Of a DNA stretch of 64,000 nt, positions 16,258 through 54,814 are shown piece after piece (positions within the stretch are counted from its first letter, which is position 1; each line of letters opens with the position of its first letter). Source of the DNA: Curtobacterium sp. 9128 (lineage in GTDB: Bacteria; Actinomycetota; Actinomycetes; Actinomycetales; Microbacteriaceae); assembly GCF_900086645.1 (NCBI RefSeq), contig NZ_LT576451.1, positions 2,232,001 through 2,296,000 on the forward strand, in the 5' to 3' direction. Made by a program: the position numbers and the translations under genes. A model generated the notes under the pieces. It made no database searches, was not told the DNA's origin, and was given only the letters and a program-made list of their open reading frames with translations.

Positions 16258-16524
16258 ATGCCGAACCAGCAGATGCGGGGCGTGAAGAACCCCGAGATGT
16301 ACGAGGAACTCCGCGCAGCGGGCAACTCGAAGGAGAAGTCCGCGCGGATCAGCAACGCCGCGGCCGCGAAGGGCAAGCGGGCGGTCGGGAAGAAGGGCGG
16401 GGAGTCCGGCTCCTACGACGACTGGACCGTCGCGGATCTCCGGAAGCGTGCGAAGGAGCTCGGACTCACCGGGTACTCGTCGAAGCGGAAGAGCGAGTTG
16501 ATCGAGGCGCTTCGCGACCACTGA
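16258..16524 (+). CDS. Rho-N/SAP-like small basic protein (DUF7218-type N-terminus)
   Basis: An 88-residue basic protein. Residues 1-47 contain [30 protein letters not shown] and a Lys/Gly stretch, matching a small actinobacterial family. Residues 53-86 ([20 protein letters not shown], then [12 protein letters not shown]) form a helix-extension-helix like the Rho N-terminal or SAP domain, which binds nucleic acid. ATG 16258 lies 7 nt after TACGGT, so the mRNA is probably leaderless. The 3' end overlaps the convergent GH125 gene by 59 bp. Confidence 0.82.
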
Positions 16525-17788
16525 GGTCGTCCGCGACGGTCAGCGCGAGCTCGCAGAACATCGCGTCGGCCCACGAGAACCACTCCCGTGAGAACGCGGC
16601 GGGGTCGTCCACGTCGAACGACTCGTGCATGCGCCCGGTCCCGGCGTCCGTCGCGAGCAGCACGGCGAGGAGCTCCCGTCGGCGCTCCGGTGTCCCGGTG
16701 ATGCCCTCGACGCAGAGCGCGATCGGCCACACCCGGTTCGGCTCGGTGTGCTGGCTCCCGATGCCCTCGGCCGCCGTTCCGCTGAACCAGTACGGGTTCG
16801 CTGGTGACAGCACCAGGCGTCGGGTCGCGGCGGTGACCTCGGGGTCGATGACGTCGGGCGCGTCGGACGGCAGTGAGAGCAGTGACGGCATGTTCGCGTC
16901 GTCCATGAGCACGGCGCCGCCGAGCCCGTCGACCTCGTACGCGTAGACCTGTTCGCCGTCGTGCTCGACGATGCCGTGCCGACGCACCCCGTCGAGGACG
17001 GCCGACCGCAGTGCGTCGGCGTCGTCGGCGAGCCGCTCGTCGCCGTACACGTCGCGGGCGATCTCGGCGAGGTCGAGCAGTGCCTGCGCGGCGTGCAGGT
17101 TCTCCGGGACGTTGTAGCCGTACGTGCACGCGTCGTCCGACGGCCGGAACCCGCACCAGGTCATGCCCGTGACGGCGACCGGGGTGCCGCGGCCGTCGCG
17201 GTCGAGCGTCTCGGTCGCGATCCCGACGTCCCGGACGAACCGGTACGCGGACGCGTCGTGGTCCTGTTCGGCGCGCCACTGGTCCACGATCGTGCGGAAG
17301 ACCCGGTGGGCGCGCTCGTCGAACAGGTCGGTGCGACCGGTCGCGGTCCACAGCCGGTGGGCGAACTGGACCGGGTAGGCGAGGCTGTCGACCTCGTACT
17401 TCTGCTCCCACACCGACGGGTCGTCGCAGAGGTCCCGGTCATCGTGGTGCGCGCCGGTGGCCGAGCGGTTGAAGGCGTTGGCGTAGGGATCGTGGTCGAT
17501 GCACCGGAACTGCCGCCGGACGACCCCGGTCAGGACGTCGGCGATCGCGGGGGAGTCGGCGGCGAAGCGCAGGTACGGGAGCATCTGCGTCGTCGAGTCG
17601 CGGAGCCACATCGCGGGGATGTCGCCGGTGATGACGAAGGCGGTGCCGTCGTCGTCGAGGGTGATGGTGTCGGTCAGCGTGCGGGTGAGGGCTTCCTCGA
17701 CCCGGTCGCCGACACCGACACCGGCGGTGCCCCGGACCGCGTCAGCGGCGGCCCGGAGCACCGAGGTGGTCTCGTCGTCGAGGATCAC
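16466..17788 (-). CDS. Glycoside hydrolase family 125 (exo-alpha-1,6-mannosidase)
   Basis: A 440-residue metal-independent alpha-mannosidase. Characteristic GH125 blocks are visible in order: [96 protein letters not shown] and MHESFDVDD...WADAMFCEL. The family removes alpha-1,6-linked mannose from glycans. There is no signal peptide, so it acts in the cytoplasm on imported oligosaccharides. The start GTG 17788 forms a GTGA overlap with the upstream oxidoreductase stop; the longer frame to 17923 lies inside that gene. It is the last gene of the sugar operon. Confidence 0.92.
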
Positions 17789-18804
17789 GCGGAGACCGGC
17801 TCCACCTGGAGCACCGACGCGATCGTGCCGCTGTGGGCGCCCTCGTACGCCGCCAGGATCATGCCGAGCACGGCGATGCCCTCCCGCTCGGTGTGGATCG
17901 GACGCGTGCCGTCGCGCAAGCACGCGCCGAACGCGCCGATCTCCGCCGCGAACGTGTCCACGTCCTCGTAGGTCACGGTCTCGCTGGTGCCGTCGAGCAG
18001 GTCCCAGCGGAGCGTGGTGCCGTCGCTCGTCAGCGAGCCGAGCTCACCGACGGCGCTGAAGCGCTCGGTGCCGGCGGCCGGCTCGTACGCCCAGCTCGTG
18101 ACGAGCTGGCCGACGGCGCCGTTGTCGAAGCGGAACAAGGCCTGCGCCGAGTCCTCGCCCTCCATGAACGTCAGGCGGTGGGTCGAGAGCAGCGCCGTCG
18201 CCTGGACGGGGACACCACCGGCGAGGTGCATGAGCAGGTAGCTCGGGTGGTAGCCGGTGTCGATGAGCTCGCCGCCGCCGCTCTTCGACGCGTGTGCACG
18301 CCAGCCCATGTTCTCCGGGTCGAAGTCGTTGCGGAAGCTGTCCGTCGTGCGGACCTCGTACACGGTGCCGAGGACGCCGGTCTCGATGAGCTCCTTCGCC
18401 TTCGCGACCGCCGGCATGAAGAGCTGGTTGTGCGCGCACATCAGCGTGACGCCCGCCTCGCTCACGGCGGCCTGCACGTCGCGCGCTTCCTCCGGGGTGA
18501 GGCAGAGCGGCTTCTCGCAGAGGACGTGCTTGCCGGCCCGTGCCGCGGCGACGATCGCGTCGCGGTGCAGGTGGTGCGGCAGGCAGATGTCGACGGCGTC
18601 GATGTCGGCGCGGTCGAGCATCTCCTGGTAGTCGGTGAAGTGGGGCACGCCGAGCTCGGCGCCGCGGGCCTCGGCGGTCGACGCGAACGCATCGGCCACC
18701 GCGGCGATGCGGATGAGGTCCGGGTGCTGGGCGTAGCCGGCGATGTGTGCGGACGCGATGCCGCCGCCGCCGATGAGTCCGACGCGGATGGTGTCGTTGG
18801 ACAT
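17785..18804 (-). CDS. Gfo/Idh/MocA family oxidoreductase (second of pair)
   Basis: A 339-residue NAD(P)-dependent sugar dehydrogenase-like protein. The Rossmann motif is VGLIGGGGIASAHIAGY near residue 8. The family motif with the catalytic Lys is AGKHVLCEKPLCLTPEEA. The C-terminal beta-sheet domain contains GGGELIDTGYHPSYLLMH, in which the Asp and His are in the usual substrate positions. ATG 18804 is preceded by AGGAGT. It is translationally coupled to GH125, which suggests that it modifies the sugar released by that enzyme or a precursor. Confidence 0.9.
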   Translation of the reverse strand: MSNDTIRVGLIGGGGIASAHIAGYAQHPDLIRIAAVADAFASTAEARGAELGVPHFTDYQEMLDRADIDAVDICLPHHLHRDAIVAAARAGKHVLCEKPLCLTPEEARDVQAAVSEAGVTLMCAHNQLFMPAVAKAKELIETGVLGTVYEVRTTDSFRNDFDPENMGWRAHASKSGGGELIDTGYHPSYLLMHLAGGVPVQATALLSTHRLTFMEGEDSAQALFRFDNGAVGQLVTSWAYEPAAGTERFSAVGELGSLTSDGTTLRWDLLDGTSETVTYEDVDTFAAEIGAFGACLRDGTRPIHTEREGIAVLGMILAAYEGAHSGTIASVLQVEPVSA

Positions 18805-18857
18805 GGTGACTCCTGGTTTCGTGCTGGGTTGCTGGTGTCGGTCGGTCGCGCGGCCGG

Positions 18858-19844
18858 TCAGGCCGCGACGGGGATGCGCGCAGCGGCGTTCGCGGCGACG
18901 ACGAGCCTCGTGAGCTCGACGGCGCGGGCGATGTTGTCGTCGGCACGCGTGCCGGAGGTGATGTGGTCCACCCACTGTCCGAAGGCGTCCTGACCGTCCT
19001 CGGGGACCGGTATGGTGACCGGCTCGTCGCCGTACGCCGACCCGCCGGCGGTGAGCCGGGCCTCCTGGTCGGAGAACGCGAGCCATCCGCCGGTGCCCGC
19101 CACGTCGATCGTGAACGGGGTGCCCGCGACGAAGCCGGCCTCGATGATGCCGATCGCCTGGGAGGCGTAGCCGACCGTGACGACCGCGTGGTCCTCGACG
19201 GCGCGGCCGGTGACGGAGCGGTAGACGGCCTCGACCGAGTCCGGGCGGGCGCCGAGGAACAGCTGCGTGAGGTACACCGGATGGCAGCCGAGGTCGGTCA
19301 ACGCGCCGCCGATCGCGGTCGACGGATCGAAGAAGCGCTCCGGCAGCCACGGCCGGACCGCGCCGTCGTGCGACAGGCGGACGCGGGCGTGGTTGACCTC
19401 GCCGAGGCGGCCGGACCGGATCTCCTCGAGGATCGCCTGCGTGTACCCGTGGTACAGCCGGGGGAGCGAGACGATCAGCTTGACGCCGGCGGCGTCGCAG
19501 GTCGCGATGATCTCCTCGCACTCCTCCACCGTCGGGGCGAGCAGCTTCTCGGTGAAGACGTGCTTGCCGGCCCGGGCGGCGCGCGTGATCACGTCGCGGT
19601 GCACGTCGGTCGACGTCGTGATCGTGACGGCGTCGATGTCGTCGCGGGCGAGCAGCGCGTCGAGGTCGTCGGTGAACTCGACACCGAACTGTTCGGCGCC
19701 CTCGCGCCCACGGGCGACGTCGTCGTCCCACACGGCGACGAGCTCGGTCCCCGGGTGCTCGACGGTCTGGCGGGCGTAGTCACCGGCGTGGACGTGCCAG
19801 AAGCCGAGGACGGCGACGCGGATCGGGGTGGTGGTGCTGGGCAT
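18858..19844 (-). CDS. Gfo/Idh/MocA family oxidoreductase (first of pair)
   Basis: A 328-residue NAD(P)-dependent oxidoreductase. The N-terminal VAVLGFWHVHAGDYARQ is a Rossmann variant in which the usual GxGxxG is replaced by GFWHVHAGD, a feature of some sugar-oxidising members. The catalytic Lys lies in AGKHVFTEKLLAPTVEE. ALTDLGCHPVYLTQLF corresponds to the substrate-binding helix. It sits 43 bp after the solute-binding protein and 53 bp before its paralogue. Two different Gfo/Idh proteins in one sugar operon suggest a two-step oxidation or a redox epimerisation. Confidence 0.9.
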   Translation of the reverse strand: MPSTTTPIRVAVLGFWHVHAGDYARQTVEHPGTELVAVWDDDVARGREGAEQFGVEFTDDLDALLARDDIDAVTITTSTDVHRDVITRAARAGKHVFTEKLLAPTVEECEEIIATCDAAGVKLIVSLPRLYHGYTQAILEEIRSGRLGEVNHARVRLSHDGAVRPWLPERFFDPSTAIGGALTDLGCHPVYLTQLFLGARPDSVEAVYRSVTGRAVEDHAVVTVGYASQAIGIIEAGFVAGTPFTIDVAGTGGWLAFSDQEARLTAGGSAYGDEPVTIPVPEDGQDAFGQWVDHITSGTRADDNIARAVELTRLVVAANAAARIPVAA

Positions 19845-19887: not shown

Positions 19888-21291
19888 CTAGACCCGGACC
19901 TTGTCGTAGTCCTTGGGCAGCTTGAACGGGGAGTAGGTCTGCATCATCGGGTTGACCCGCGCCTGTGCGCGCTCGACCGCCTCCTGCGGCGACGCGGTGC
20001 CGAGGAGCACGCTCGACCTGGCGTCGGCGAGCGAGTCCCACCAGGCGCCACCGACGGGCAGGGGCGGGCGGCAGGTGGAGTCGGGCATCGACTCGACGAA
20101 GAAGCGGATCGACTTCGCGGAGCCCTTCGGGTCCTTCAGCGCGGCGATGTTCGACGGGACGCTCGTGGCGGGGACCATGTAGGTCTCCTGGCCGCGCTTG
20201 CCGGTGAAGTACTTCATCAGCTCCCACACGGCCTTGTTCTTCTTGGAGCCCTTCGGCAGGCAGAGCGCGAAGCCGCCGGACCAGGTGTACTTGTCGTCAC
20301 CGGCGGCCTGGGTCGGCAGGTACGCGACACTCCAGTCGAGGTCCTTCGGCCCGTAGTTGTCGAACGTCTGGATCGTCGAGGGAACGCTGACCATGAACGC
20401 CATGCGATTCGCCAGGAACGCGGTCTGCCCCGGCGGGTGTCCCGTGGGCTCGTACGTGGCGATGAACGTGTCGGCGGCACGGTAGCCGTAGCGCTGCGCC
20501 CACTCGTCGTAGAACTCGTAGATCTTCTTGACGCTGCCGGAGTCCATCGTCATCTGCGAGTCGGCCTGGTCGAAGTACGACGCCCCGAGTCCGAGGCCCC
20601 ACGTGAACGGCCAGCCCTCGCCGTACCAGGGGAGGAGGCCCATCTTGCTGTAGTTGCCGCCCTCCTTCTTCGTGAGCTTGTCGCTGACCTCGGCCATCCG
20701 GTCCATCGTCACCGGGCCGTTCTGCTCCCAGTCGAACTCGTCGAGGTCGAGCCCGGCGTCGCGGAGCATCGTGCGGTTCACGAACATCCCGCGGGCGTCG
20801 GTGTCGTGCGGCAGGCCGTACGTCTTGCCCTGGTAGGTCAGCTCGCCGACGGTGAACCCGAGCCAGGAGGACAGGAACTCCTCCTTGGAGACGTCCTCGA
20901 ACTCGGCGATCAGCTCGTCGATCGGCTCGATGAGCCCGATCGCCGCGTACTGCGCCGCGCTGAACCGGTCGAGGAGCCACAGGTCGGGAGCTGTCCCACC
21001 GCGGACGGCCGTGATGACGCTGGTGGCGTCGCCGGTGCCCTGCGAGGGCACCTGGTTGACGCGGACGTCGATCTCCGGGTGCAGCTGCTTGAACTGGTTG
21101 ATGACCTTGGTCTGGAACGGCACGAAGGTGCCCGTGACGCCCCAGATCGAGACCGAGTTCGGGTTGCTGCCGGCACCGCCCGTCGCGCACCCGGCGGCGA
21201 GCAACGCGAGGGCACCAGCACCGCCCGTCGCGGCGGCGGCGCGGAGGAAGGTCCGGCGGTCGAAGGCGGCGCCGTTGTGTCGCGCGTTCAC
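19888..21291 (-). CDS. ABC transporter solute-binding lipoprotein (family 1, sugar), Tat-exported
   Basis: A 467-residue binding protein. The leader has a twin-arginine pattern (FDRRTFLRAAAATGG) and then a lipobox LLAAGC, so it is a Tat-exported lipoprotein anchored outside the membrane. The mature part has the family-1 layout: SIWGVTGTFVPFQTKVINQF, a DLWLLDRFSAAQYA hinge, GLPHDTDARGMFVNR and WSGGFALCLPKGSKKN. The start GTG 21291 overlaps the stop of the permease (GTGA); longer frames lie inside that permease. It delivers the sugar to the two permeases encoded just upstream. Confidence 0.92.
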   Translation of the reverse strand: MNARHNGAAFDRRTFLRAAAATGGAGALALLAAGCATGGAGSNPNSVSIWGVTGTFVPFQTKVINQFKQLHPEIDVRVNQVPSQGTGDATSVITAVRGGTAPDLWLLDRFSAAQYAAIGLIEPIDELIAEFEDVSKEEFLSSWLGFTVGELTYQGKTYGLPHDTDARGMFVNRTMLRDAGLDLDEFDWEQNGPVTMDRMAEVSDKLTKKEGGNYSKMGLLPWYGEGWPFTWGLGLGASYFDQADSQMTMDSGSVKKIYEFYDEWAQRYGYRAADTFIATYEPTGHPPGQTAFLANRMAFMVSVPSTIQTFDNYGPKDLDWSVAYLPTQAAGDDKYTWSGGFALCLPKGSKKNKAVWELMKYFTGKRGQETYMVPATSVPSNIAALKDPKGSAKSIRFFVESMPDSTCRPPLPVGGAWWDSLADARSSVLLGTASPQEAVERAQARVNPMMQTYSPFKLPKDYDKVRV

Positions 21292-22226
21292 TTGAAGCTC
21301 CCGATCTGGATGCCCTTGAGGAAGGTCCGCTGGAAGAAGAAGAACAGGATGACGAGCGGCAGGATGATGAGGATCGATGCCGCCATCAGCTGGTTGAACT
21401 GGAAGTCCGCGCTGTTGTTCAGGCGGAACACCTGGAGGCCGATCGACAGGGTCTGCACGTTCTCGTCCTGCAGGTAGATGAGGGGCCCGAGGAAGTCGTT
21501 CCAGGCACCCACCGCGGCGAAGATGCCGACCGTGACGAGCGCGGCCTTGGCCTGCGGGAACACGATCCGCCAGAGGATGCGCCACTCGGACGCGCCGTCC
21601 ATGCGTGCGGCGTCGAGCAGGTCCTTCGGGATCTGCAGCAGGAACTGCCGGAGGAGGAACACGTAGAACGCGGACCCGAACAGGCTCGGGACGACGAGCG
21701 GCAGGAAGGTGTTGATCCAGCCGAGCCGCGCGTACAGGTCGAACATCGGGATGAGCGTCACCGGGAACGGGATGAACAGCGTCGCGAGCACGACGTAGAA
21801 CATCCGGTCCCGGCCACGCCACTCGATGCACGAGAACCCGTAGGCGATGACCAGGTTCGACACCATCGAGAACAGCGTCACGAGCACGGTGATGATCAGC
21901 GTGTTCCGGAAGAACGTGAAGAACGGCATCGCGTTCACGGCCTCGCCGAAGTTCGACCAGTCCAGCCACTGCGGGAACCAGGTCGGGGGGAACGCGCCGA
22001 GCTCGCTGTTGCTCTTCAGCGCGGAGATCACCATCCAGTAGATGGGGATCAGGAACAGCAGGCTCATCGCGATGAGCACCACGCGAGCGCCGATCGACGA
22101 CCACGGGGAGCGGACGGAGCCGTCGGCGTTCCTGGAGCGGTCCGCGCGGGCGTTCCTGCGGTCCTTGGGGCGGACGTCCTCGATCGACGACGTCTCGGTG
22201 GACACTCGGTCCTTCTGCATCGTCAT
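21288..22226 (-). CDS. Sugar ABC transporter permease, MalG/CUT1 type
   Basis: A 312-residue inner-membrane permease with six hydrophobic helices after a charged head of about 45 residues. The ATPase-coupling EAA loop is DAARMDGASEWRILWRIVFP near residue 200. The end is FFFFQRTFLKGIQIGSFK. It pairs with the MalF-type protein encoded 4 bp upstream. No ATPase gene is present in the operon, so a shared MsiK/MalK-like ATPase must be supplied from elsewhere, as is common in actinobacteria. Confidence 0.93.
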   Translation of the reverse strand: MTMQKDRVSTETSSIEDVRPKDRRNARADRSRNADGSVRSPWSSIGARVVLIAMSLLFLIPIYWMVISALKSNSELGAFPPTWFPQWLDWSNFGEAVNAMPFFTFFRNTLIITVLVTLFSMVSNLVIAYGFSCIEWRGRDRMFYVVLATLFIPFPVTLIPMFDLYARLGWINTFLPLVVPSLFGSAFYVFLLRQFLLQIPKDLLDAARMDGASEWRILWRIVFPQAKAALVTVGIFAAVGAWNDFLGPLIYLQDENVQTLSIGLQVFRLNNSADFQFNQLMAASILIILPLVILFFFFQRTFLKGIQIGSFK

Positions 22227-22230
22227 GGCG

Positions 22231-23220
22231 TCACTCCCCGCTCACGTCGTAGTTCACGAACCGCTTGGACAGCCAGTAGACGAGTCCGGAGAGGATCATC
22301 CCGGCGAGGAACAGGAGCACGGCCATCGCACTCGCGAACCCGAGCTGCGCGTAGCTGAACGCGTTCTTGTAGAGGTAGAGCATGTAGAACAACGTCCCGT
22401 TGTCCGGGGACCCGAGTCCGCCGGTGCCGGACGAGATCACGTACGCCTCGGTGAACACCTGCAGGCCGTTGCTGATCCCCGTGATGAGGTTGAACAGGAT
22501 CGCGGGGGAGATCAGCGGCAGCGTCAGTGCGAAGAACTGCCGCACCGGACCGGCGCCGTCGACGCGTGCTGCTTCGTACAGGGTCTTCGGGATGCCGCGC
22601 ATGCCGGCGAGGAACACCAGCGCCGCGTTGCCAGCACCCATCTGCGCCAGCGCGACGATCACGAGCTTCGCGGTCGTCGGGTCGCCGAGCAGGTTCGTCG
22701 CCGGGATCCCGACGAGCTTCATCGCCTGGTTCACGATGCCGGTCTGCGGGTTGACGAGCACGACGAAGATGAATGCAAGGGCGAAGGTCGGGATGAGGGA
22801 CGGGATGTACAGCGCCGTCCGGTACCAGCTGATCTCCTTGACGTCCTGGTTCATCGCCAGCGCGATCACGATCGCCACGACGATGCCGACGGGCACCGCG
22901 ATCACCGCGTAGAACAACGTGTTGCCCACGGCGGTGTGGACGAGCGGGTCGATGAACGCGGCGATGTAGTTGCCGAACCCGACGAAGGTCGCGGCGTTCA
23001 TGCCGGAGTACCGCGTCAGGCTGATCACGAAGGAGTAGATCAGCGGGTACGCGATGAACACGAGGACCCCGACGATCCACGGGGAGATGAAGGCGATACC
23101 GATGCGGAGGCGTCGCTTCTCCGCTGCGGTCCAGGGGTGTTTCTTCCCCGCTCGTCGACCGGTGCGCTCGGTCGGTGGAGCGGGTCGCGCTGTGGTGGCC
23201 GGGCGAGCGGTCGTCGTCAC
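22231..23220 (-). CDS. Sugar ABC transporter permease, MalF/CUT1 type
   Basis: A permease of about 329 residues with a Thr/Ala/Pro-rich cytoplasmic head and six helices. The first helix is IAFISPWIVGVLVFIAYPLI; the EAA loop is EAARVDGAGPVRQFFALTLP. It is the first gene of the operon transcribed away from the ROK regulator. The start is set at GTG 23220, preceded by AAGGGA; an in-frame ATG at 23247 is possible but lacks a ribosome site. Confidence 0.9.
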   Translation of the reverse strand: MTTTARPATTARPAPPTERTGRRAGKKHPWTAAEKRRLRIGIAFISPWIVGVLVFIAYPLIYSFVISLTRYSGMNAATFVGFGNYIAAFIDPLVHTAVGNTLFYAVIAVPVGIVVAIVIALAMNQDVKEISWYRTALYIPSLIPTFALAFIFVVLVNPQTGIVNQAMKLVGIPATNLLGDPTTAKLVIVALAQMGAGNAALVFLAGMRGIPKTLYEAARVDGAGPVRQFFALTLPLISPAILFNLITGISNGLQVFTEAYVISSGTGGLGSPDNGTLFYMLYLYKNAFSYAQLGFASAMAVLLFLAGMILSGLVYWLSKRFVNYDVSGE

Positions 23221-23313
23221 GGGCGTCCCTTCGGGTTCCCGTCGCACACCGGTGTGACGACGGGCGCGACCACCTCGGTGTGGTCACTCGGCGATCTGCC
23301 CGTCCGGATCGGT

Positions 23314-23355
23314 TCAATCCAATTGATTGACAAATTCGCTTGGTCAGGAATGCTA
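23314..23355 (+). promoter_or_regulatory. AT-rich operator/promoter between sugar operon and ROK regulator
   Basis: An AT-rich island in GC-rich surroundings. TCAAT (23314-23318) and ATTGA (23326-23330) form a near-palindrome around CCAATTG. TTGACA at 23327-23332 is a consensus -35 box for the ROK gene, and ATGCTA at 23350-23355 is a -10 candidate at 17-bp spacing. The palindrome overlaps the -35 box and sits 94 bp from the permease start, so a bound ROK repressor could block both directions. Confidence 0.6.
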
Positions 23356-23395
23356 GGGACCATGCACGAGCTTCGTCAAGCACCGGATCGCTGAG

Positions 23396-24706
23396 ATGTC
23401 TGCAGGGCAGAACGCGACCCACATCGCGGCGCACAACCGCGCCGTGGTGCTCGACGTCGTGCGTCGCGACGGTCCCGTGACACGTTCGGCGCTGACCACC
23501 AGGACGGCACTGACCGCCCAGACCGTGTCGAACATCGCGGCCCGACTCCTCGCCGACGGCCTGGTCCGGGAGACCGGCGCAGCGGTCCGGGAGACCGGCG
23601 CGGCGGTCCGGGAGACCGGCGCGGCGGTCCGGGAGACCGGCGCGGCGGTCCGGGAGACCGGCGCGGCGGTCCGGGTCGCCGGCCCGGTCGCCGGCCGTCG
23701 GCTCGAACTCGCGCCGGACGGTCGGTTCGCCGTCGGCATCCACCTCGACCCCGCGCAGGTCTCCGTGGTGCTCCTGGACCTCGCAGGCGGGCTCGTCGCC
23801 GAGCAGCACCTCGGCGCGGCCGACGTCGACGATCCCTCGTCGACGCTCGACGCGATGGCCGGTGCGGTCGACCACCTCGTGACAGCCGCTGGGATCGACC
23901 GCGCGCGCGTGGCCGGCATCGGTGTCGCGGCACCCGGCCCCATCGAGCAGGACCGCGCGGCGCTCGGCGCTCCCGTGCAGCTCGCCTCGTGGTCCGGCGT
24001 CCCGATCGCCGCCGAACTCGCGGAGCGCACCGGGTTCCCCGTCCGCATCGAGAAGGACGTCGTCGCGAGCGCCCTCGCCGAGTGGTGGACGGCGCGGTCG
24101 ACCGAGGACCTGGTGTCGGTGTACCTCGGGTACGGCGTCGGAGCGGGCATCGTGGTCGGTGGCGAGGTCGTCCGAGGCGGCACCGGCAACGCGGGGGAGT
24201 TCGGCGGCATCCCCGTGCACGCGCACGGCGGCTGGACCGAGCTCTGGGAGGCCTGTCAGCCCCTCCAGCAGGTCCGGCGCGGGGTGGGCGCCGGGTTGCT
24301 CCCACCGGTCGCCGAGGACCCGGCGTCGGTCCGGGCCGCGTTCGAACAGCTGTGCGCGCTGCCTGCGGCTCGGCCGCTCCTCGCCGAGGCCGGCGCGGCG
24401 CTCGGTTCGGCGCTCGTCCACGTCGTCGAGCTCCTCGACGTGCAGCGCGTGGTCGTCGGCGGGAGCGCAGCACTCGCCGGCGGCGCGACCCTCCTCGACG
24501 CACTGCACGCGCGGCTCTTCGAACGCCTGGGTTCGCGTCGCGCGCCAGCGGTGGCGTTCACGGCGCTCGGTGAGGACGTCGTCGCCCGCGGCGCGGCGTG
24601 TGCCGTGCTGCTCACGTCCGCCCCGGCCGGTCCCGTCGTCCCCGCGGTGCGGCAGGTCCGGACGGGAGGCCCGGCTCGGGCCCGCGACATCGCCCACCCC
24701 TGGTAG
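23396..24706 (+). CDS. ROK-family transcriptional repressor with tandem-repeat linker
   Basis: A 436-residue regulator. The N-terminal winged helix (HIAAHNRAVVLDVVRRDGPV then TRSALTTRTALTAQTVSNIA) is followed by the ROK sugar-binding domain from about residue 100 (FAVGIHLDPAQVSVVLLDLA) to the end. The kinase-type DxGxT motif is replaced by HLDPAQ and the zinc-binding CxCGxxGC motif is absent (HAHGGWTELWEACQP), so it is a regulator and not a kinase. Between the two domains the heptad VRETGAA is repeated five times. It is divergent from the sugar operon and probably represses it until the sugar binds. The last residues lie in a half copy of the dispersed GGACGGGAGGC element. Confidence 0.92.
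   Translation: MSAGQNATHIAAHNRAVVLDVVRRDGPVTRSALTTRTALTAQTVSNIAARLLADGLVRETGAAVRETGAAVRETGAAVRETGAAVRETGAAVRVAGPVAGRRLELAPDGRFAVGIHLDPAQVSVVLLDLAGGLVAEQHLGAADVDDPSSTLDAMAGAVDHLVTAAGIDRARVAGIGVAAPGPIEQDRAALGAPVQLASWSGVPIAAELAERTGFPVRIEKDVVASALAEWWTARSTEDLVSVYLGYGVGAGIVVGGEVVRGGTGNAGEFGGIPVHAHGGWTELWEACQPLQQVRRGVGAGLLPPVAEDPASVRAAFEQLCALPAARPLLAEAGAALGSALVHVVELLDVQRVVVGGSAALAGGATLLDALHARLFERLGSRRAPAVAFTALGEDVVARGAACAVLLTSAPAGPVVPAVRQVRTGGPARARDIAHPW
23564..23668 (+). repeat. Five 21-bp tandem repeats inside the ROK gene (VRETGAA x5)
   Basis: Five head-to-tail 21-bp units begin at 23564, 23585, 23606, 23627 and 23648. All are identical except for one A/G difference in the first (GCA versus GCG). 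A degenerate sixth unit (VRVAG) follows. The unit is a multiple of three, so copy-number change keeps the frame. The near-identity points to recent expansion by slippage or unequal exchange. Confidence 0.95.
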
Positions 24707-32915: not shown

Positions 32916-32920
32916 CCGCC

Positions 32921-33013
32921 GGACGGGAGGCGCGGGTCGGCCCCGCGCCGTGCCTCCCGTCCGCCTGCGCCGGACTGGAGGCGCGGGTCGGGCCCGCACC
33001 GTGCCTCCCGTCC
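32921..33013 (+). repeat. Two tandem hairpins of the GGACGGGAGGC family
   Basis: Hairpin A (32921-32962) runs from GGACGGGAGGCGCGGG to GCCTCCCGTCC. Hairpin B (32972-33013) runs from GGACTGGAGGCGCGGG to GCCTCCCGTCC. They lie just after the LLM stop codon at 32915 and probably act as a double terminator. Both arms match the copies at 9.0, 14.9 and 44.3 kb. Confidence 0.8.
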
Positions 33014-33020
33014 GCCTGTC

Positions 33021-33160
33021 GTTGCGTCTGCAACCGGCGACAGAGTCGCTGTCGTACGACAGCGACCCTGTCGGTGGGCCGCGGGTGCAACTGTTGCAGG
33101 CGCGCAGGAGCGACAAGACCGATGTCGTACGACAGCGGCGCTGTCGTTCCGAGTCGGGCC
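33021..33160. repeat. Palindromic element copy 1 (core GTCGTACGAC twice)
   Basis: A ~140-bp element with two palindromes centred at 33055 and 33128, each with the core GTCGTACGAC. The first spans 33038-33073 with one mismatched pair. GTTGCGTCTGCAA precedes it, TTGCAGG lies between the palindromes, and GTTCCGAGTCGGGCC follows. The same arrangement recurs at 44363-44500. The rest of the interval to 33309 is GC-rich simple sequence without a gene. Confidence 0.8.
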
Positions 33161-33322
33161 CGCCGCCCGCCCGCCCCCGCCCCCGCCGCCCCGCCCCGCC
33201 CCGCCCCGCCGCGTGACGCCGCGTGACGCGCGCCCCGCCGGCCGACGTCACGTGACGAAACCCCCGGTCACGGACCGCAACACCCGTCGCTGAACGGCGC
33301 GAGCCGCCATAGCGTCGCAGCC

Positions 33323-43591: not shown

Positions 43592-43634
43592 GCGCGCCGC
43601 GCTCGGCGCGCTCGGCGTCGGGCGTCGGCTGCGT

Positions 43635-44339
43635 CGAGTGCGCGGAAGTGGTGGCTGGTCCGCGTCTCGGATCGCACCTTCTGCGCACTCGGCCGTCGGC
43701 CGACCGACCTCCCGGCCGAGTGCGCGGATGTGGCGTCGCACCCGACTCGGGAATCGGCCTTTGTGCGCAGTCGTCGCATGAGGCCCGGCCCGGCCACACG
43801 CCGGACGGGAGCCTCGTGACGGTCCGGTCACGAGCCTCCCGTCCGGCATCGAGTGCGCGGAAGTGGTGGCTGGTCAGCGTCTCGGATCGCACCTTCTGCG
43901 CACTCGGCCGGCCGACCGACCGCCCGACCGCCCGGCCGAGTGCGCGGACGCGGTGTCGTACCCGCCCCGGGAATCGGCCTTTGTGCGCACTCGTCGCATG
44001 ATGCCCGGCCCGGCCACATGCAGGACGGGAGGCTCGTGACGGTCCGGTCACAAGCCTCCGGTCCGGCGTCGAGTGCGCGGAAGTGGTGGCTGGTCCGCGT
44101 CTCGGATCGCACCTTCTGCGCACTCGGCCGGCCGGACCCGAGCCTCCCGTCGGGCGCCGAGTGCGCGGACGTGGCGTCGCACCCGACCCGGGAGCCGCCT
44201 TTTGTGCGCACTCGTCCCGTCCGCTGGCGGGCCCGGCTGGATCGCGCACCGCCCCTGCGCACTCGTCGCGCGGATCCGGGGCCGGCCGCACGCCGGACGG
44301 GAGGCTCGTGGCGGCCTGGCCACGAGCCTCCCGTCCGAT
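43635..44339. repeat. Three tandem imperfect repeats of ~215-270 bp in a non-coding region
   Basis: Unit starts, recognised by CGAGTGCGCGGAAGTGG, are at 43635, 43850 and 44070. Each unit contains the same order: that start, CTCGGATCGCACC, TGCGCACTCGG (inverted to the start), a second CGAGTGCGCGGA, TTGTGCGCAxTCG, and a hairpin with GGACGGGAG / CTCCCGTCC. The third unit carries a ~45-bp insert. Frames on both strands give Arg-rich peptides with no domain, so I treat it as non-coding. It fills most of the 960 bp between two convergent genes. Confidence 0.9.
44295..44336. terminator. Hairpin of the GGACGGGAGGC family, last of the repeat region
   Basis: A perfect 18-bp stem beginning GGACGGGAGGCTCGTGGC closes a 6-nt loop (GGCCTG). 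Related hairpins occur at 43803-43844 (one mismatch) and 44023-44064 (degraded right arm) within the tandem units. Together they can stop transcription from the MsnO8-type gene. Confidence 0.75.
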
Positions 44340-54717: not shown

Positions 54718-54786
54718 CCGCCAGGGGTCCCGCCGCCGCCGTCCCGCTGCGACGCCGCTGTCCCGCTGAGACGCCGCCGTCCCGCT

Positions 54787-54814
54787 GAGACGCCGCCGGA
54801 ATCCGCGGCGTCTC
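54787..54814. terminator. Bidirectional hairpin plus 19-bp tandem repeats
   Basis: GAGACGCCGC (54787-54796) pairs with GCGGCGTCTC (54805-54814) around an 8-nt loop. Just upstream (about 54735-54790) three copies of a ~19-bp unit containing GTCCCGCTGAGACGCC stand in tandem, the last forming the left arm. It lies between the convergent DUF2470 and BCCT genes. Confidence 0.7.

Follow-up and report, generated by a model that had tools for sequence, protein, structure and literature searches.

The locus

The window analysed here, a stretch of 64,000 nucleotides from Curtobacterium sp. 9128, carries a gene for a ROK-family (NagC/XylR-type) transcriptional regulator that lies divergent from an ABC-transporter/oxidoreductase/GH125 operon, with an operator-like dyad in between (Table 1). 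The family had already been recognised in the initial annotation, and domain searches agree with it: the ROK domain matches PF00480 over residues 115-401 (E 9.4e-30, 104.6 bits against a cutoff of 22.9), and the N-terminal winged helix-turn-helix (wHTH) part is of MarR type (MarR_2, E 7.3e-7, 29.7 bits against a cutoff of 27), also backed by the helices and wing strands of an AF2 model. Which ROK regulator is it? It scores 76.6 bits against the Mlc equivalog (cutoff 530) and 72.7 bits against the NagC equivalog (cutoff 650), and is thus neither Mlc nor NagC by the NCBIfam cutoffs. Its structural relatives in the PDB are Mlc, Lmo0178 and TM1224; the model (range 7-436) aligns to 5f7q_L with a VIA-align Z of 13.3 and an rmsd of 10.0 over 310 residues. 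With the ROK repressors of this kind (Mlc/NagC, Lmo0178 in PDB 5f7q and the Vibrio Mlc homolog 1z05) it shares the wHTH and the ROK domain, in a structural match over most of its length, and like the genes of Mlc/NagC-type repressors its gene diverges from a sugar-transport operon. Unlike in these proteins, the canonical wing is here replaced by an insert built of repeats. A kinase phosphate-binding motif and a zinc motif were not visible by eye in the regulator.

Table 1. Features of the regulator locus, in window coordinates
Feature	Position	Strand	Remarks
GH125 alpha-mannosidase	16466..17923	-	PF06824, E 5e-132; ORF coordinates
Second Gfo/Idh/MocA oxidoreductase	17785..18800	-	Start approximate, within ORF 17785-19731
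Gfo/Idh/MocA oxidoreductase	18858..19844	-	
Extracellular solute-binding protein (SBP_bac_1)	19888..21280	-	Start approximate; part 20299-21222 scanned
Sugar ABC transporter permease	21288..22226	-	
Sugar ABC transporter permease (UgpA/MalF-like)	22231..23247	-	Gene 1 of the divergent operon
Operator-like site	23313..23338	.	Dyad TCAATC-N5-GATTGA (23314-23330) in conserved block TTCAATCCAATTGATTGACAAATTCG
ROK-family (NagC/XylR-type) regulator, 436 aa	23396..24706	+	wHTH about 15-105, ROK domain 115-401
VRETGAA array	23564..23668	+	Five 21-bp units GTCCGGGAGACCGGCGC(A/G)GCG encoding (VRETGAA)x5, residues 57-91
Decayed sixth unit (GTCCGGGTCGCC...) and 12-bp x1.9 repeat (GGTCGCCGGCCC)	23669..23698	+	Remaining wing loop VRVAGPVAGR, residues 92-101

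The operator-like block of 26 bp occurs once in the genome (allowing up to 3 mismatches) and overlaps a TTGACA that is the probable -35 element of the regulator gene. By eye, the promoter would read TTGACA/ATGCTA with a spacer of 17; a consensus promoter scan, at the threshold used, returned none for the regulator on the plus strand. The dyad is the putative operator, from which the regulator probably represses both the divergent operon and itself until a sugar, presumably of mannoside type, binds to it. A ten-codon leader ORF (MHELRQAPDR*, 23362-23394, plus strand) ends one base ahead of the regulator ATG. Its own ATG sits 6 nt past the -10-like ATGCTA hexamer, so that a leaderless mRNA start is possible, and in other orthologs (for example L017 and L018) the matching ATG opens the regulator itself (MDEPRQ...).

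An in-frame array of 21-bp units

The units of the VRETGAA array start at 23564, 23585, 23606, 23627 and 23648, and TRF extends the repeat to 23563-23675 (period 21, 5.4 copies, 98% matches, score 219). Of its 105 bases 104 are identical, the sole difference within the five units being an A at 23581 in unit 1 (GCA for GCG, a synonymous change), and the frame is kept, with 23564 as the first base of codon 57; the five near-identical, in-frame units of the initial annotation are all there. In the sixth unit decay sets in past GTCCGGG. The self-similarity lies far above chance: 83 of 84 positions match at a lag of 21, and none of 300 versions of the regulator gene with shuffled codons exceeds 52. 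The near-identical units follow head to tail within an ORF and have a length divisible by three, which gives the array the form of an in-frame minisatellite, or intragenic tandem repeat. Unit 1 includes the wing strand VRE, which is common to repeat-free orthologs; by this comparison VRE in unit 1 is the putative ancestral strand and units 2-5 are apparent duplicates of unit 1.

Is such an array exceptional for its genome? A sample of 464 kb puts it in third place by TRF score, among other arrays with units of 6-26 bp in 3-21 copies, and short-unit arrays are not rare. A pattern of 33 bp (one and a half units) has no second site in its own genome and none in 65 other genomes of the genus (up to 3 mismatches), and this single place among 66 genomes rejects a dispersed DNA element. 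The units contain internal dyads, and the plus strand of the array, taken as single-stranded DNA, folds far better than shuffled versions (z -5.1), which fits an origin by slippage.

The array is predicted to sit at the tip of the wing

The initial annotation had placed the array in the linker between the DNA-binding and the sugar-binding domain, a position that the AF2 models of the repeat-bearing and the repeat-free form rule out. The model of the window protein, built on 4 ortholog sequences and with a mean pLDDT of 56, has wHTH helices at 30-37 and 41-53 and wing strands at 57-60 and 102-105. Its wHTH part, including the blocks of the wing strands, reaches a pLDDT of about 75-80, and the loop 63-98 falls below 50, to about 30 in its middle. 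In the model of the repeat-free ortholog of Curtobacterium sp. ZW137 the strands 57-60 and 63-66 form a tight hairpin with a two-residue turn. From these two models, the array is predicted to be an insertion at the wing tip, between the two strands of the winged-helix wing, where some 40 residues would form a disordered loop. The ZW137 ortholog, which has no repeat in the wing, carries a different repeat of TRTDRTRAR type inside its ROK domain (residues 123-150, about L039:3367-3450), in a stretch that the window protein lacks.

The wing varies while the operator-like site does not

How does the wing behave among relatives? In 26 orthologs of the genus, recognised by similarity of the ROK domain and nearly all also by the upstream site, the segment from the recognition helix (helix 3) to the ROK domain ranges from 25 to 64 residues, and the majority have no array at all; as had been expected of it, the array is not fixed among relatives, at least between species. 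The sister species PS02333, 96.3% identical in DNA over 5 kb, lacks the 21-bp array and has at the same point an 18-bp array encoding (H/V)PTG(A/P)(A/S), of HPTGAA type. Both arrays contain the core GACCGGCGC(A/G)GCG and hence likely go back to the same seed or to one ancestral array. Between these two species there is no nonsynonymous difference in the 59 N-terminal codons, the helix-turn-helix is free of amino-acid changes and the ROK part differs by 5.3% in DNA; the arrays are nevertheless unlike. In a third species, from a separate supported clade, a 15-bp array encoding APPGD occupies the same spot in a segment of 54 residues. The inserts carry net charges of +1, 0 and -4, and to judge from the sequences compared they have neither sequence nor charge in common.

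The different array of so close a relative as PS02333, in the same place, supports the recent turnover that the near-identity of the units had suggested. The age of the array is loosely bounded: the units show one difference, and an array dating back to the split from the sister species would be expected to have about two, by our own estimate from the third-position difference between the two species. In a paralogous ROK regulator all 30 genomes compared have exactly 35 residues in the same segment and retain the motif GRGKPRTILRL; divergence within this group is lower than among the focal orthologs, which makes the fixed length a softer control, supportive rather than conclusive. Beyond the genus, a family sample of 398 genomes gave no ortholog at E 1e-60 or better.

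Against this variation, the operator-like block is the same at all 26 positions (0 mismatches) whether the segment of the ortholog measures 64, 60, 39, 28 or 25 residues. Such constancy next to so variable a wing speaks against a redirection of DNA recognition by the insert, although the TTGACA within the block may owe its conservation to a promoter function. Together with the unlikeness of the inserts in sequence and charge, the invariant site makes the evidence lean against a role of the array in target choice.

Probably a tolerated product of slippage

What, then, is the array? The explanation that we consider probable is a minisatellite that was born by slippage in a wing loop under weak constraint and hardly influences the choice of target. 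A seed made up of the closing part of the first strand of the wing and the turn (VRETGAA) would have been copied by slippage during replication or by unequal recombination, and a filter for keeping the frame would account for the multiple-of-three units. The outcome would be the disordered wing-tip loop of ~40 residues in the place of the two-residue turn of the shortest orthologs. In this lineage of regulators the canonical ROK wing motif is missing and the wing tip appears to be under weak constraint, so that different repeats may arise, drift and vanish there while the helix-turn-helix and the probable operator stay fixed. The repeats probably hardly influence which target is chosen, and any effect on affinity would be modest at most.

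A counterpoint to weak constraint is that the window species and its sister both keep a long wing with five TGAA-type cores, which could reflect selection on length. A longer wing might thus be an adaptive arm of the two sister species, contacting DNA or protein and selected for its length rather than its sequence, and the segments of 64 and 60 residues, each with five cores in otherwise unlike units, speak for such an arm. However, the insert is near-neutral in charge and predicted to be disordered, and the common core can be explained by a common seed, all of which leaves the arm unlikely; a positively charged, DNA-binding version of it finds no support in the net charges of the inserts.

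Could the array instead act as a rheostat, in which steps of 21 bp in copy number, per cell or per strain, tune how strongly the sugar operon is repressed? Units so nearly identical can be gained and lost, the array sits in the DNA-binding domain, related species differ greatly in the length of the wing and, by analogy, the function of E. coli TolA is altered by the number of its in-frame repeats (PMC3477136). Yet the operator-like site is invariant over all wing lengths compared, the inserts share no sequence or charge and most orthologs do without an array, and we regard tuning of this kind as doubtful, slightly more so than an adaptive arm. That the wing is an evolvable length dial, with repeat number shifting operator affinity or dimer geometry stepwise, seems to us more doubtful again; if true, strains could tune their use of glycans without altering the recognition helix or the operator. 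The phase-variation device proposed in the initial annotation is not supported, since steps of 21 bp cannot switch the frame. An on/off phase-variable locus was likewise rejected: the units are multiples of three and the promoter region does not include the array.

A DNA-level element, a binding site or hairpin incidentally located inside the gene, would agree with the internal dyads and the folding of the plus strand, but the 33-bp pattern has its single site among the 66 genomes here, the upstream site is unchanged in orthologs with other arrays or none and the array is always in frame, so we give this reading very little weight. Tandem repeats are prone to copy-number errors in assembly and sequencing; here, however, the genome is a single contig of 3.94 Mb, 105 bp is shorter than an ordinary read and a related species also has an array at the same place, which makes an artefact most improbable of all.

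Relation to known systems and other repeats

The slippage-born minisatellite that we favour is of an ordinary kind, as coding tandem repeats with multiple-of-three units are widespread in prokaryotes (PMC6749651); the sole unusual element, and a slightly unusual one, is its host site, the wing of a winged helix. With tolA of E. coli it shares a multiple-of-three unit, near-identical copies and a protein of variable length, but in tolA the number of copies differs from strain to strain and its functional effect was put to the test (PMC3477136), whereas the variation seen here is between species. In Borgs, repeat-born disordered regions have independent origins and evolve fast (PMC9879509). The amino-acid tandem repeats of Borgs and those of the wing are alike in being recently formed, fast-evolving, independently arising and predicted to be disordered; unlike them, the present array belongs to a chromosomal bacterial regulator and sits in the wing of its DNA-binding domain. 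Among open-licence papers on Curtobacterium repeats, ROK wings and repeat-bearing regulators we found nothing specific and no paper on repeats hosted by a wing.

The orthologs suggest that the tip of a winged-helix wing can absorb 30-40 residues of slippage-born sequence, repeatedly and with different units. As the recognition helix and the probable operator stay fixed meanwhile, they would offer a clean natural series on the share of the wing in DNA binding. They also caution that an in-frame repeat in a regulator need not mean phase variation.

Other repeats lie elsewhere in the window. The strongest array has a 220-bp unit in 2.7 copies (43634-44216, 88% matches). A low-complexity, C-rich stretch in which several short arrays overlap (33158-33286) follows just past a 51-bp x2 repeat (32917-33018), and at 54734-54798 a 19-bp unit, not a multiple of three, is present in 3.4 copies with 93% matches.
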